Source: Myxococcota bacterium
GTDB lineage: Bacteria; Myxococcota; B64-G9
DNA: 64,000 nt
Reading direction: 5' to 3'
NCBI GenBank assembly: GCA_022710975.1
Contig: JAKLGA010000002.1
Span: 1 to 64,000, forward strand
This document shows, one piece after another, positions 15,380 through 21,273 of the stretch (position 1 is its first letter; every line of letters starts with the position of its first letter). A program made the translations under genes and the position numbers. The notes under the pieces are model-generated. The model was not told the DNA's origin, did no database searches, and saw only the letters and a program-made list of their open reading frames with translations.

Positions 15380-16264
15380 TCAGGGCGCGCGACAGCCACC
15401 AGGCGGTACGCAGTAGAGGCCCAGGACGCAGTAGCCGCCCACGCACGGCAGGGTGCCGAAGTCGTGGCACTCGGCGTCCCCGTCGCAGGGCTGCTGGTTG
15501 AGCGCGCAGCGGTGGCTGGCCGCGCCGCAGGTGTTCCGCACCGCGGCGCAGTCCACGTCCTCCGCGCAGGTGGTGTGCGGGTAGACGCTGTTGACGCAGT
15601 CGTAGCCCGAGGGGCAGTCGTCCTCCGCCTGGCAGGCCACCAGGCAGTAGGTCGGGTTCTGCCCGCTGCACAGGTTGGCCGGATCGCCGCACGGGCCCTG
15701 GGTCTTGTCCGTGCAGCCCGCGCAGATGGGCGAGCACCCGGGCACGCAGTAGGGCTGGGTGGGATCCACCTGGCAGGCCCGCTCGGCCAGGACGCAGAAC
15801 TGGCCGAACGGGCAGTAGTCGGTCTGCTCGCAGCGCCCGGCCAGACAGCTGCCGCCCACGCACACCTCGCGCTCGAGCAGCTCGCAGTCCGCGGTGGTGC
15901 GGCAGCCCAGGTGGCAGGCGCCGCCCTCGCAGATCATGCCGATGTCGCAGTGCCGGTCGAGGCTGCAGGTGCCCGCGGCCACGCACTGCCCGGAGCCGAC
16001 GTCGCAGAAGGAGCCGGCGCCGCAGTCCTCGTTGGAGACGCAGCCCGACAGCACCTGGCAGGAGCCGCTGGGGTTGCAGTACTCGCCGTCGGCGCAGGCC
16101 TCGTCGGAGGCGCACACGCAGCGGTAGTCCAGGGTGTCGCAGCGCTGGTAGGCCGCGCAGTCGCCGTCGCGACGGCACTCGCCCTCCAGGGTGCGCTCCG
16201 AGCAGCCGCCGCCCGCCAGGGCGGCCAGGCAAGCCAGGGCCAGGCCTCGCGCGAGGGTGTTCAC
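15380..16264 (-). CDS. Cys-rich surface lipoprotein
   Basis: Exported protein of 294 residues with a signal peptide ending in a lipobox-like LAGGGC (Cys21). The mature part is a run of short six-cysteine modules (CRRDGDCAAYQRC, CSLDRHCDIGMIC, CVSNEDCGAGSFC), the disulfide-rich repeat style seen in many myxobacterial surface proteins. Start GTG 16264 overlaps the TGA of the upstream protease/VWA gene (GTGA), so the two are translationally coupled. No enzymatic motif is visible; adhesion or structural scaffolding is a guess. The 3' end faces the palindromic element. Confidence 0.85.
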   Translation of the reverse strand: MNTLARGLALACLAALAGGGCSERTLEGECRRDGDCAAYQRCDTLDYRCVCASDEACADGEYCNPSGSCQVLSGCVSNEDCGAGSFCDVGSGQCVAAGTCSLDRHCDIGMICEGGACHLGCRTTADCELLEREVCVGGSCLAGRCEQTDYCPFGQFCVLAERACQVDPTQPYCVPGCSPICAGCTDKTQGPCGDPANLCSGQNPTYCLVACQAEDDCPSGYDCVNSVYPHTTCAEDVDCAAVRNTCGAASHRCALNQQPCDGDAECHDFGTLPCVGGYCVLGLYCVPPGGCRAP

Positions 16265-18039
16265 GGCGTCGTCCTCCGCAAATAGGACACCTCGAGGTAC
16301 ACGCCCACCGGGGGCAGGCTGTCCCCGCCGAAGAAGATCGAGTTGTAGCCCGACTCGTACCGCCAGGTCCCGCCCTCGCCCTCCTCCGGCAGCTCGACCG
16401 CGCAGCGGTGGCCCGCGGCGCAGACCTGGTCCGCCTCGCAGCCGGTGGCGTCCAGGCAGGCGGCGTCCGCGGTGGTGTACTGCAGCACGTGCATGGGCCC
16501 GGGCAGAGGGACCTCCGACAGGTAGAACTTGCGCCGCAGCCCCACCGCGCTGATGCCCAGCGCGTCCACCACCGGCCCGTAGTCCTCCGCGCAGATGCTG
16601 TAGAACAGCCCGCCCGTGCCCTCCTGGACCGCCAGGTAGCGGGCCCCGGCCTGCGCGCTCGGGCAGCCGTCCGGCGCCGGGCCGACGATGGCCGACAGGC
16701 TCACCCGGGCCTCGTCACCTGCGCCCTTGAGGTGCTCCAGCCAGCGCACGTAGTACTCGACCAGCCCCAGGGAGTGGTCGTCCTCGTCCGAGATCACGAT
16801 CACGAACAGGGCGGCGTCCGCGCGCAGGAAGCCCGCGTTCTCGCCGTCCAGCAGCTCCGGGGAGAGCGCCAGCCGCATGGCGTCCAGCCCGCGCTCCACC
16901 CGGCTCAGGGTGATCGGCAGCTGGACGTTGGCGGCGAAGGCCGTCTGGGGGGCCGGGGTGCTGTTGTCGATCACCCGGGGGGAGCCCTGCAGGCGGCCCG
17001 ACTGGCTGAGGTCCTCGGTGTCGGTGGACACGATGCCGATCTGGAACTCCGCGCCGGACTCCACCAGGCGCTCCATGAAGTGGTCGAACTTGGCCCCGAG
17101 CTGGGTGCGCTCCTCGCTCATCGTGCCGCTGTTGTCCACGACCCACAGGATGTCCACCTTGGGCGCCAGGGCCTGGCGGAAGGTGTCCACCTGGGTGGGC
17201 ATCGGGTTGAAGCGCACGTCCTCGCAGCCCGCGGTCGCGAGCAGCGCCCCGAGCAGGACGAGCCCCGCCAGGGCCCACCGCCGGCGCGGCCACAGCAGCA
17301 GACCGGCGAGCAGGGCCAGGGCGCCCGCGCCGCCCCCGCCGGCCGTGGCGCAGCCCCCGTCGTCCCCGGGCTTGGCCGTGCAGCGCGGGCTGGGCAGCCC
17401 GGTCGGGTACACGTAGCACAGCCCCTGGATATCATCCTGGGCGAGATCGCGCTTCAGCGTCTCGCCCGGCGCCGCGGTCGGGTACATGGTGGCGTCTCCC
17501 GAGTCGGAGTGGTCGAGCCCCAGCATGTGGCCCGCCTCGTGGGCCACGGCGTTCTGGATGTCGCTCGCCGCGGCGGAGCCGTTGACGGCGAAGGTGTAGT
17601 CCTCGCCGTTGAGCTCGATGTCCGAGTCCACCACCTCGCCGGTGTTGCGATCGTAGGTGGTGGTGGTCAGCGCGATGGCGCCCTGCCCGTGCTCCCAGCC
17701 CGACTCGCGCCAGAGGATCAGGTTGATGTTGTCGTTCCAGTGGTCCTGGTCGAAGCCCACGTCGGTGCGGGAGGTGGTGCCGCCCGAGACGAACGCGAAG
17801 TCCGAGCACTCCGGCGCATTCCAGGCGGCCAGACCCTGGAGCACCGCGGTGAGGCACGAGGCCGGGGCGACGTCGTCGCTGCACAGCTCGTTCACCAGCA
17901 CGGTCACCTGGCGGTCGGGCCACTCCAGGCACACGTGGGTCTCGGCGTCCTGGCTGCGGGTGTAGGCCCGGGCCTCGGGCCCGGCGGTGAGCAGCGCGAG
18001 GGCCAGGGCCGCCCCGCTCCAGCGCGCGAGGGTCATCAC
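16261..18039 (-). CDS. Matrixin-like metalloprotease with internal MYXO-CTERM tail fused to a VWA lipoprotein
   Basis: One 592-residue frame with two normally separate exported proteins. Part 1: signal peptide, then a metzincin protease with HEAGHMLGLDH at 167-177 (three zinc His and the catalytic Glu) and a downstream MYP turn, ending in a MYXO-CTERM-like tail: Cys230, a Gly-rich segment, a helix 238-250 and Arg252-254. Part 2 follows without a stop: a second helix (256-271), a lipobox-like ATAGC with Cys272, then a VWA domain with MIDAS DNSGT at 302-306, and Cys pairs near the end. Between Trp255 and Cys272 there is no ATG, GTG or TTG, so the second half has no ordinary start of its own. 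Start GTG 18039 or ATG 18036 overlaps the upstream stop. Sorting, membrane topology and processing are inferred. Confidence 0.85.
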   Translation of the reverse strand: MMTLARWSGAALALALLTAGPEARAYTRSQDAETHVCLEWPDRQVTVLVNELCSDDVAPASCLTAVLQGLAAWNAPECSDFAFVSGGTTSRTDVGFDQDHWNDNINLILWRESGWEHGQGAIALTTTTYDRNTGEVVDSDIELNGEDYTFAVNGSAAASDIQNAVAHEAGHMLGLDHSDSGDATMYPTAAPGETLKRDLAQDDIQGLCYVYPTGLPSPRCTAKPGDDGGCATAGGGGAGALALLAGLLLWPRRRWALAGLVLLGALLATAGCEDVRFNPMPTQVDTFRQALAPKVDILWVVDNSGTMSEERTQLGAKFDHFMERLVESGAEFQIGIVSTDTEDLSQSGRLQGSPRVIDNSTPAPQTAFAANVQLPITLSRVERGLDAMRLALSPELLDGENAGFLRADAALFVIVISDEDDHSLGLVEYYVRWLEHLKGAGDEARVSLSAIVGPAPDGCPSAQAGARYLAVQEGTGGLFYSICAEDYGPVVDALGISAVGLRRKFYLSEVPLPGPMHVLQYTTADAACLDATGCEADQVCAAGHRCAVELPEEGEGGTWRYESGYNSIFFGGDSLPPVGVYLEVSYLRRTTP

Positions 18040-18596
18040 GGCGCCACCCCCGCGGCCCGGCGCGCGGCCCGGATGACGGACACGGCCTCGTCCCAGCCGA
18101 GCTCCAGCGGCCGGGCGTCGGCGCCGGGGAAGTCCAGGCCGCTCAGGCGCTGGCGCAGGCGCAGCTCGCCGTCCCGCGCCTCGAGCGCGAACACGCCCTG
18201 GCTGAGGCCCACCACCCGCAGCCCGGGCGCGCGCCCCGTCCGCTGCTCCAGGAACAGCAGCAACGGCTCCTCGGGCTCGAAGGTCGGGTAGCCGTGGGCC
18301 ACCTGGGCCCAGCGTCCGATCGCGCCGCCGGGCTGCACGATCTGGAAGGCGGCGGGCCCCGCGCCGGAGAGGTCCTGCTCGACCGCGAACTCGAAGGTGG
18401 TCAGCATGCGCCGGCCGGACGCGTCCCAGGCGGTGCTGGCGCGGGCGAGGTGGGCCACCACCACCCGCTCGGCCCGGGCAGACAGGTCGGCCAGGCCGAG
18501 GCGCTCGGCCACCGAGGCCTGCGCGAACCCGCCGGCGAGGGCGAGGCCGAGCCCGGCGCAGGCGAGCAGCAGGTGCGTCCAGGGTTTCGTTTTCAT
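18036..18596 (-). CDS. Small exported protein of unknown function
   Basis: 186 residues with a clear signal peptide (MKTKPWTHLLLACAGLG, cleavage near AQAS). The mature domain is alpha/beta in pattern, with a motif VVVAHLARASTAWD and ending in a helical DEAVSVIRAARRA. I do not recognise the family. It heads the operon whose next gene is the protease/VWA fusion (overlapping stop and start), so it may be a partner or inhibitor of the protease; this is inference. Its transcript would be almost leaderless: the -10 box ends 6 bases before the ATG. Confidence 0.75.
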   Translation of the reverse strand: MKTKPWTHLLLACAGLGLALAGGFAQASVAERLGLADLSARAERVVVAHLARASTAWDASGRRMLTTFEFAVEQDLSGAGPAAFQIVQPGGAIGRWAQVAHGYPTFEPEEPLLLFLEQRTGRAPGLRVVGLSQGVFALEARDGELRLRQRLSGLDFPGADARPLELGWDEAVSVIRAARRAAGVAP

Positions 18597-18645: not shown

Positions 18646-21273
18646 TCACGGGGCGTGGTAGAAGAGCGCTCCACCCGAGCCGGTGGCCAGCCCCGCGCCG
18701 TCGGAGAACCAGGCCAGGCTCCACAGCCAGGCCCGGGTGCCGCTCTCCTGCCGGACCCACCCTCCCCCGGCCCCGTCCGAGCGCAGGATGGTGCCGCCCT
18801 CGCCGACCGCCCAGCGGGTGCCATCCGGCTGGCCGATGATCCGGCGCAGGTGGGCGGTGGTGCCGCTGGGCTCGACGCTCCAGGCCCCGCCGGACAGGCG
18901 CAGGATGGTGCCGAGGTTCCCCACCACGGTGACCTCGCCGGCCGCGCTGCCCCAGACCCCGCTGTAGCTGTCGTTCTCCGCCAGGGCCGCGGGCCGGGGC
19001 ACCTCGACCGGGAGCCAGCCGTTGCCGTCGTGGTGGTACACCCCCAGGTTCTCGCCCACCACCCACACGTCGTCCACCGCGGAGCCCCACACGTCGAACA
19101 GATCGTCCCGGGTCCCCGGCAGATCGCGATCCACCCACGCCTGCCCGTCCCAGACGCCCGCCAGGCCGTCCTCGCCCGCCACCAGGATCTCGCCGCCCGG
19201 GAGCGGCCACAGCGCCCGCAGGGTCCTGCGCTCCATGGCCGCATCCGCCTGGCCGTTGCCGTCCGCGTCGGTCAGCGAGCGGAAGGTCGAGCCGTCCCAG
19301 GCCATCAGGTGCCCCAGGGTCGCGGCCAGGTGACCCGTGCCGTCCGCCGCGAAGAACAGGTCGTAGAAGGAGAGCGCGGGCACGTCGGCCACCGGGACCC
19401 AGCCCTCCGGATCACGCCGCAGCAGGGTGCGATCCAGGCCGCAGGCGAAGAGCGCGCCGTCCGGCCGCTGGGCCGCCGCCCGGAGGTCCTTGCGGGTGCC
19501 CTGGACCAGCAGCTCGGCGTCCTCGCCTGGCGCGTCGCGCACCAGCAGCCCGCCCAGTCCGACCGCCAGGGCGGCCTGGCCGGGCCAGCCGTCCACGTCC
19601 CAGACGAAGCCCAGGCTCTCGGCCCACACCTCTTCCCAGGCGTGGCCGTCCCAGCGCAGGATCGTCCCGCGGCCGCCCAGGATGTCGAAGCCCGTGGTGT
19701 AGTAACCGCCCAGCCCGTCGCCCCACACCGAGGTCAGCAGCACGCCCGACATGCCCGCCGATTCGGTCATGAACTCGAAGCTCGCGCCGTCCCAGCGGAC
19801 CAGGCGGCCGTTCGAGGTGGACACCACCAGGGCCTCTGGCCCCTCCACGAACAGCCCGTACAGGTTCTCGTTCTCGACCAGCAGGTGGACCTGCACCGCC
19901 TCCCCGTCGTAGTGCAGGAATCGCCCGAAGTCGCTGGTGGCCCACACGTCGTAGGGGCCGCTGCCCCCGAGGTTGTGGATGGCGCCCTGGCTGATCCCGG
20001 TGTCGAACCGGCTCCAGGACTCGCCGTCGAGGAACAGCCACACGCCGTCGTCCCCGGCCACGTGCACGTGCTGCGCGTCCGCCGCCCACACCGCCCGCAG
20101 CGCCGAGCGGATCGGGGGATCGACGGTCGGCGTCACGCTGAGCCAGCGCTCGCCGTCGTAGTGCAGGACCATCCCATCCTGGCCCACGGCCCACACGTCC
20201 GACAGCGAACGGCCGTCCACCGCCAGCACGTCCAGCCAGGTGCCGGCGTCCAGGGCCACGCAGTCCGTGCCGTCGTGGTGCAGGATGCGCCCCGCCTCGC
20301 CGACGGCCAGGGCGTTGTGCGCGTCGTGGGCCCACACGCCGTGCAGCCCGTCCACGCTGGGCAGGGGGTTCTCCAGGCACCAGCCCCCGGCCGAGCACAG
20401 GTTGGCGGCGGCGCGCTGGCACGCGGCGCCCTGGAGCGCGTAGCCCGGATCGCAGGCGCAGACGTGGGTCTGGCCCTGGCGCACGCAGGCGGTGCGACGG
20501 GGCTCGGCGCACGGATTCGGTTCGCAGACGTCGTCCACGCACACGCCCTGCTCGGTCTCCAGCATGCCCTCGTCGCACAGGCACACCGCGCTCTCGCCCC
20601 GGTTCGCGCAGCGGGTCCGGGGCGGCGTCTGGCAGGGCTGCAGATCGCAGGGTCGCACGCACTCGCCCTGCCCGCCCTCGACGTAGCCGTCGTCGCACAG
20701 GCAGCTCACCGCCTGCCCGTCGGCCACGCAGCGCGTGCGGTGGGCCTCGGCGCACGGGTTCGGCAGGCAGGGATCGTCGGGCACGCAGGTGCCTCCCGGC
20801 CCTTCCTCCCAGCCCGCGTCGCAGCGGCACACGGCCACGCCGAGCTCCGCGCTGCAGCGCGTCCGGTTGGGCTCGGCGCACGGGTTCGGCAGACAGGGGT
20901 CCGGCACGCAGGCGCCCCCGGGCCCGTCCACGTAGCCGGGGTCGCACAGACACACCACCGCGCCGTCCGGGCTCTCGCACCGGGTGCGGTGCTCCTCCCG
21001 GCAGGGGTTCGGATCGCAGCCGCCCGCGGAGACGCAGTCCCCCGTCGCGCTCTCCACGTAGCCCGCCTCGCACATGCAGCGCGCGGCGCCGTCGACCTCC
21101 AGGCAGGAGGTCTTGTGCAGCCCCACACACGGGTTCGGCTCGCACGGGTCCGCGGGCCCGCCGCCCCCGCCGCAGCCGGCGGCCAGCAGGCTCGCCAGCA
21201 GCGGCCCCAGGGCCGCCGCCGCCCCCACGATCCCCCGCCGCCGCGCTCGCCGCTCCAGGTTGGGTGCCCGCAT
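18646..21273 (-). CDS. Lipoprotein with EGF-like repeats and a C-terminal beta-propeller-like repeat region
   Basis: 875-residue surface lipoprotein: basic N-terminus, hydrophobic helix and lipobox LAAGC (Cys34), followed by a Gly-rich spacer. Residues about 43-290 hold six EGF-like units of the pattern PNPC...RTRC...CxCDxGY. The remaining 560 residues contain repeating VWAVGxDGMVLHYDG/WLSVTP-type units, each about 45 residues (IRSALRAVWAADAQHVHVAG, LFDVWGSAVDDVWVVG), as in the BNR/Kelch-like propellers of myxobacterial outer surface proteins. The ATG 21273 lies 6 bases after the -10 box, indicating a leaderless transcript. It may take part in cell-surface contact; there is no catalytic signature. 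Confidence 0.85.
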   Translation of the reverse strand: MRAPNLERRARRRGIVGAAAALGPLLASLLAAGCGGGGGPADPCEPNPCVGLHKTSCLEVDGAARCMCEAGYVESATGDCVSAGGCDPNPCREEHRTRCESPDGAVVCLCDPGYVDGPGGACVPDPCLPNPCAEPNRTRCSAELGVAVCRCDAGWEEGPGGTCVPDDPCLPNPCAEAHRTRCVADGQAVSCLCDDGYVEGGQGECVRPCDLQPCQTPPRTRCANRGESAVCLCDEGMLETEQGVCVDDVCEPNPCAEPRRTACVRQGQTHVCACDPGYALQGAACQRAAANLCSAGGWCLENPLPSVDGLHGVWAHDAHNALAVGEAGRILHHDGTDCVALDAGTWLDVLAVDGRSLSDVWAVGQDGMVLHYDGERWLSVTPTVDPPIRSALRAVWAADAQHVHVAGDDGVWLFLDGESWSRFDTGISQGAIHNLGGSGPYDVWATSDFGRFLHYDGEAVQVHLLVENENLYGLFVEGPEALVVSTSNGRLVRWDGASFEFMTESAGMSGVLLTSVWGDGLGGYYTTGFDILGGRGTILRWDGHAWEEVWAESLGFVWDVDGWPGQAALAVGLGGLLVRDAPGEDAELLVQGTRKDLRAAAQRPDGALFACGLDRTLLRRDPEGWVPVADVPALSFYDLFFAADGTGHLAATLGHLMAWDGSTFRSLTDADGNGQADAAMERRTLRALWPLPGGEILVAGEDGLAGVWDGQAWVDRDLPGTRDDLFDVWGSAVDDVWVVGENLGVYHHDGNGWLPVEVPRPAALAENDSYSGVWGSAAGEVTVVGNLGTILRLSGGAWSVEPSGTTAHLRRIIGQPDGTRWAVGEGGTILRSDGAGGGWVRQESGTRAWLWSLAWFSDGAGLATGSGGALFYHAP

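Follow-up and report, generated by a model that had tools for sequence, protein, structure and literature searches.

Proteins with a MYXO-CTERM sorting tail are cut by MrtX, which also works in E. coli, and the tail crosses the inner membrane, its Arg residues lying on the inside (PMC11980579). The first-pass annotation of the DNA studied here had placed such tails at protein C-termini, but this is not always so. For MXAN_5598 of Myxococcus xanthus an internal MYXO-CTERM has already been published, with the suggestion of a gene fusion whose N-terminal part is proposed to be still processed and sorted (Guo, Haft and Wall 2025, PMC11980579), and mass spectrometry has found the protein in outer-membrane vesicles (PMC4158809). 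The gene described here lies in a window of 64,000 nucleotides (positions 1 to 64,000 of contig JAKLGA010000002.1, assembly GCA_022710975.1, Myxococcota bacterium). It resembles MXAN_5598 in having an internal MYXO-CTERM between an exported N-terminal part and a second exported part. The partners differ, however: MXAN_5598 continues into a beta-barrel/OmpA protein, the window gene into a lipoprotein with a lipobox. The other close relative is the MXAN_2677/MXAN_2678 family (NF041905), which the N-terminal half matches over the catalytic part and the tail. As modelled by NCBI this family ends at the MYXO-CTERM, whereas the window protein continues.

Bacterial polyproteins with internal signal sequences are few, to our knowledge. 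The fbcH product of Bradyrhizobium japonicum, a cytochrome b/c1 precursor, contains an internal signal at which signal peptidase cuts it. We know of no sorting tag or myxosortase in this system, and it makes one respiratory complex, compared with the many unrelated pairs found here. In viral glycoprotein polyproteins a stop-transfer helix is followed by an internal signal and signal peptidase cuts on the outer face. They work alike but are unrelated, and in the window protein the upstream cut would be made by an intramembrane CPBP protease. In the literature on polyproteins and internal sorting tags, with the 2024 in silico myxosortase paper by Haft outside our scope, we found nothing earlier beyond MXAN_5598, and no published account of the lipoprotein form, the shared-Arg hairpin, the switch of signal type, the spread through the phylum or the rule that tails run on only into signal peptides.

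RESULTS

Layout of the fused gene

The first-pass annotation had proposed that one frame joins a MYXO-CTERM metalloprotease to a VWA lipoprotein. The frame does run through 592 codons without an internal stop (Table 1), and HEAGHMLGLDH, Cys230, the Arg cluster, Trp255, Cys272 and DNSGT all lie where they had been placed. It starts at GTG 18039 (or ATG 18036) on the minus strand and its TGA stop ends at 16261. Both outer junctions of the gene are overlaps with its neighbours. Adjoining the operon, window positions 18646-21273 (minus strand) encode a protein of 875 residues whose N-terminus carries a lipobox-like signal and which has EGF-like Cys repeats.

Table 1. Positions of the fused gene, its parts and its neighbours in the window
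Feature	Residues	Positions	Strand	Basis
Whole fused frame, 592 aa plus stop		16261..18039	-	
N-terminal Sec signal peptide, AxA site ARA/Y	1-25	17965..18039	-	by eye
Metzincin (matrixin-type) protease	26-229	17353..17964	-	Pfam PF00413, NF041905
HEAGHMLGLDH	167-177	17509-17541	-	
Internal MYXO-CTERM tail: GGC (Cys230), Gly-rich turn, helix, PRRR	228-254	17278..17358	-	TIGR03901, tails of 8 relatives
Second signal segment, beginning one residue past the Arg cluster	255-271	17227..17277	-	
Lipobox Cys272	272	17224..17226	-	alignment with six separately encoded orthologous VWA lipoproteins
VWA lipoprotein half	272-592	16264..17226	-	
MIDAS DNSGTM	302-306 (DNSGT)	17119-17136	-	
Upstream operon gene, exported protein; stop overlaps protease start		18036..18596	-	
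Downstream gene, Cys-rich lipoprotein; GGAGG site; 4-nt overlap of its GTG start with the VWA stop		15380..16264	-	

The protease half has both the HExxHxxGxxH motif and the Met-turn (ATMYP, residues 183-187) of a metzincin, and Peptidase_M10 (Pfam PF00413) matches it with 46.7 bits at a cut-off of 24. The model NF041905 (MXAN_2677/2678 myxosortase-dependent metalloprotease) gives it 179.7 bits, under the cut-off of 250, and gives 168.5 bits to the separately encoded relative in genome G004. Judged by these scores, the window protease is related to the NF041905 family, below equivalog level. In the tail all three parts of a MYXO-CTERM were seen by eye, namely the GC-type motif, the transmembrane helix and the Arg cluster (RRR, residues 252-254). 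TIGR03901, the MYXO-CTERM model, scores it at 18.3 bits, slightly less than the cut-off of 20. The tail is not C-terminal, as 338 residues are still to come in frame. The same genome encodes LspA and an MrtX-like protease with EExxxR and HxxxN motifs (121 bits, under the model cut-off of 180).

Abutting RRR252-254, the segment through the lipobox reads WALAGLVLLGALLATAG followed by C272. It thus has the form of a bacterial lipoprotein signal, LLATAGC272 after a hydrophobic stretch, at an internal position and with a relaxed lipobox (TAGC). In six VWA orthologs encoded as genes of their own, the N-terminal lipobox with its invariant Cys aligns with Cys272 and the DVRF after it; the alignment bears out the lipobox-like Cys272 of the earlier reading, and the second signal is therefore the old lipoprotein signal. 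No Pfam domain was called in the VWA half, and in some relatives Pfam VWA models score no better than E 0.02-0.06. When the AlphaFold model of the window's VWA half (mean pLDDT 82.6) was compared with the PDB, the matches were VWA-type folds, among them integrin beta-chain headpieces and the inter-alpha-inhibitor heavy chain, with E 4e-10 to 1e-8. On this predicted fold and the DNSGT motif we assign the C-terminal half as a VWA domain with a MIDAS; further MIDAS-like motifs, STDT and SDEDD, follow DNSGTM.

The junction and its counterparts in the family

In codons 228-271 there is no stop, and CTG is the only start-like codon in frame. The claim that ATG, GTG and TTG are absent between Trp255 and Cys272 thus holds. 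CTG codons are found at residues 241-249, ahead of the Arg cluster, with an SD-like energy of -8.6 before CTG241. Over protease, tail, second signal and VWA half GC3 stays at 0.96-1.00 in the same frame, and because of this continuity no hidden frameshift is apparent. A frameshift between the halves was ruled out, as the other two frames give neither the tail nor the signal. We likewise ruled out the loss of a single stop codon at position 255 (TGG for TGA), which had been suspected earlier: with a TGA there the VWA half would still lack a start codon and an SD, and two genes would not result.

We compared nine genomes of the family, the window's and eight others. All eight others have the operon, in which the protease gene stands between a gene for an exported protein, like the one upstream in the window, and a gene for a VWA lipoprotein, followed by one for a Cys-rich lipoprotein. 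In each of them a stop closes the protease tail, and the next VWA gene has its own ATG behind an SD-like site (duplex -8 to -13 kcal/mol). At this junction of the window, stop, SD, ATG and n-region are all missing together, and because the whole junction is lost in frame a one-base error cannot explain the fusion. From this comparison it appears that the lineage of the window lost the whole junction in frame. The question raised in the first-pass annotation, whether the halves are separate adjacent genes elsewhere, can be answered with yes for the protease and the next VWA lipoprotein gene in all eight relatives. In G001 and G004 this next gene is orthologous to the VWA half of the window. The other relatives have a second, more distant VWA copy in its place, and the ortholog, where present, comes later in the operon or on a different contig. 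Two genomes are closest in layout, and in one of them, G001, about ten codons separate the Arg cluster from an overlapping TGATG. Several relatives (L052, L056, L057) have two VWA and two Cys-rich lipoprotein genes per operon; the window, G001 and G004 have one of each.

Census of MYXO-CTERM tails

In the window's genome and two single-contig genomes we read the MYXO-CTERM matches from the DNA to their stop codons. The window's genome has 69 credible tails, 66 of which end within 28 residues and three of which run on. Normal ends were found for 5/6 and 16/17 tails in the other two genomes, where the single run-on of each enters a signal peptide. Pooled over the three genomes, the stop comes within 28 residues for 87 of 92 tails, and all five run-ons enter a signal peptide. 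All three run-ons of the window's genome (the window gene and one gene each on contigs C7 and C24) continue into another exported protein. The C24 gene (L214 3749-5863) encodes an amidase (Amidase_3) that continues into a PD40 propeller protein. The C7 gene (L213 3657-7274; G000:C7, about 73656-77273) encodes a protein of 1205 residues with two MYXO-CTERM tails, in the order NlpC-like (by eye) Cys-rich part, internal MYXO-CTERM, lipobox, GH25 lysozyme, Cys-rich repeats and final MYXO-CTERM. A further candidate, L204, was rejected as a run-on tail; it seems to be a spurious match in a membrane protein of ferredoxin type.

Recurrence of the joint in the phylum

Profiles of the joint were run over 195 Myxococcota genomes and the candidates were then read from the DNA. 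The first profile (A2) was built partly from artificial tail-plus-signal chimeras, the second (A3) from real joints only. Six of the 20 loci in the first-profile set were left out for a stop or a short tail, as was L328 of the second set. At least 57 frames in at least 43 Myxococcota genomes and at least 13 families continue without a stop from a MYXO-CTERM through an Arg cluster into a second signal; 17 of the 57 frames listed had gone into building the second profile. By a simple pattern test, 11 of the second signals in the frames listed have a lipobox and 37 a strict AxA site, the remainder being mostly relaxed sites that look like type I. The loop from the Arg cluster to the second hydrophobic core is mostly 0-6 residues long in these frames; L214 has a long linker. 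An ATG, GTG or TTG is found near 37 of the 57 joints listed and is absent from the other 20.

The C-terminal partners of the frames listed fall into 20 groups. Several of the fusions are conserved between genera or between families. One group with beta-barrel/OmpA-type partners accounts for 14 of the 57 hairpins listed and looks like MXAN_5598. The amidase-hairpin-PD40 fusion is present in families f1, f16 and f29 (loci L214, L228, L290, L309), and its second signal is of the AxA type (type I) in G006 and G028 and has a lipobox in G184. Identity between loci L269 and L283 is 71% and extends through the joint; another fusion, common to two families, is represented by L272, L274 and L275. Proteases related to the window's (MXAN_2677/2678-like) were found with the same hairpin and a different partner in G104, G105 and G023 (loci L305, L327, L273); by sequence this partner looks like a relative of the protein encoded just upstream of the window protease. 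As the joint recurs, conserved, in other fusions, it is not an artefact of one assembly. By these comparisons the window gene exemplifies an architecture that recurs in Myxococcota, a MYXO-CTERM hairpin followed by a second signal peptide. Its own fusion is a young member of this common type, of which others, such as the amidase-propeller fusion, are old.

DISCUSSION

Probably the window gene is a real fusion that yields a precursor of two proteins, with the hairpin cut by myxosortase on one side and by signal peptidase (II here) on the other. The fusion and its signals can be read directly in the DNA; the topology and the two cuts we infer from them. The polyprotein already suggested in the first-pass annotation therefore stands as far as the fusion and its logic are concerned, with halves that are separate in relatives, signals of their own and a joint that recurs conserved, while the cutting would follow from the signals.

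It might be argued that the strain has two genes and that an assembly or sequencing error removed their junction. We found no second copy of the protease-VWA fusion in the eight family relatives or in the phylum search, so that it is present in one assembly only. However, the stop, the SD, the ATG and the n-region would all have to vanish exactly in frame, in three genomes that include the window's own 87 of 92 MYXO-CTERM frames end normally, and joints of this kind are conserved in other, independently assembled genomes, among them the single-contig G070, G095 and G148. We consider such an error very unlikely. Equally hard to credit are two translation products, where the VWA half would also be started from an internal CTG in the tail and the proteins would be effectively separate. 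The SD-like site before CTG241 and the common start codons near many of the joints listed would fit this idea. Yet with no stop in between ribosomes would still make the fusion, more than a third of the joints listed (20/57) have no common start, and CTG is the usual Leu codon at such G+C content.

The fusion could also be real and kept as one chain, the protease being tethered to the VWA domain through a two-helix hairpin with one or both sites uncut. Cleavage at both sites is a prediction from sequence. Uncut forms can work, as loss of myxosortase is only partly disabling in M. xanthus (PMC11980579). Against an uncut chain stands the observation that the second signals keep their lipobox or AxA site and that the signal type changes within one orthologous fusion, which is most sensible if they are cut. 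This switch is the best argument that can be drawn from the sequences for second signals that are really cut. Moreover, many partners are outer-membrane beta-barrel/OmpA-type proteins, which must leave the inner membrane. An uncut chain thus seems unlikely.

For the precursor of two proteins that we favour, the following course might be envisaged. In an operon that was already tightly packed, with overlapping neighbour junctions, an in-frame deletion would have taken the end of the protease tail, the stop and the next gene's SD, start codon and n-region. The Arg cluster would now have a double role, as cytoplasmic anchor of helix one and as positive n-region of the second signal. The first signal peptide would send the protease out through Sec, the MYXO-CTERM helix would act as a stop-transfer from outside to inside with RRRW remaining cytoplasmic, and the next helix would restart export from inside to outside, bringing the VWA half to the other side. 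Lipidation by Lgt and a cut by LspA before Cys272 would then give a lipid-anchored VWA protein, and a cut by myxosortase near Cys230 would give a surface-sorted protease. A hairpin of about 40 residues would remain after both cuts.

We lean, with some reserve, towards a wider reading in which Myxococcota use the MYXO-CTERM as a polyprotein joint, i.e. a removable hairpin of stop-transfer helix, Arg loop and type I or type II signal that gives paired surface proteins in equal amounts, with loss of the stop tolerated only before a signal peptide. Everything after the tag would be cut off; stop loss would therefore be tolerated only there, and fusions would arise repeatedly. Found in at least 57 Myxococcota proteins, the joint looks less like a sequencing accident than like a general ‘polyprotein’ design of bacteria. 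Should these fusions be cut where their signals point, a whole phylum would be producing surface proteins in matched pairs, each pair as one chain with the sorting tag as the joint. A ‘C-terminal’ tag cannot be taken as terminal by default. The fusions also name pairs that probably work together (protease and VWA lipoprotein, amidase and propeller, adhesin and beta-barrel) and might serve as natural substrates for the still undefined lipidation and cleavage step of myxosortase.

Among the proteins with an internal MYXO-CTERM hairpin we also noted a large repeat protein with PPGL repeats. It is common to twelve genomes from several families (loci L292, L293, L297, L307, L308, L312, L316, L317, L324, L272, L274 and L275).
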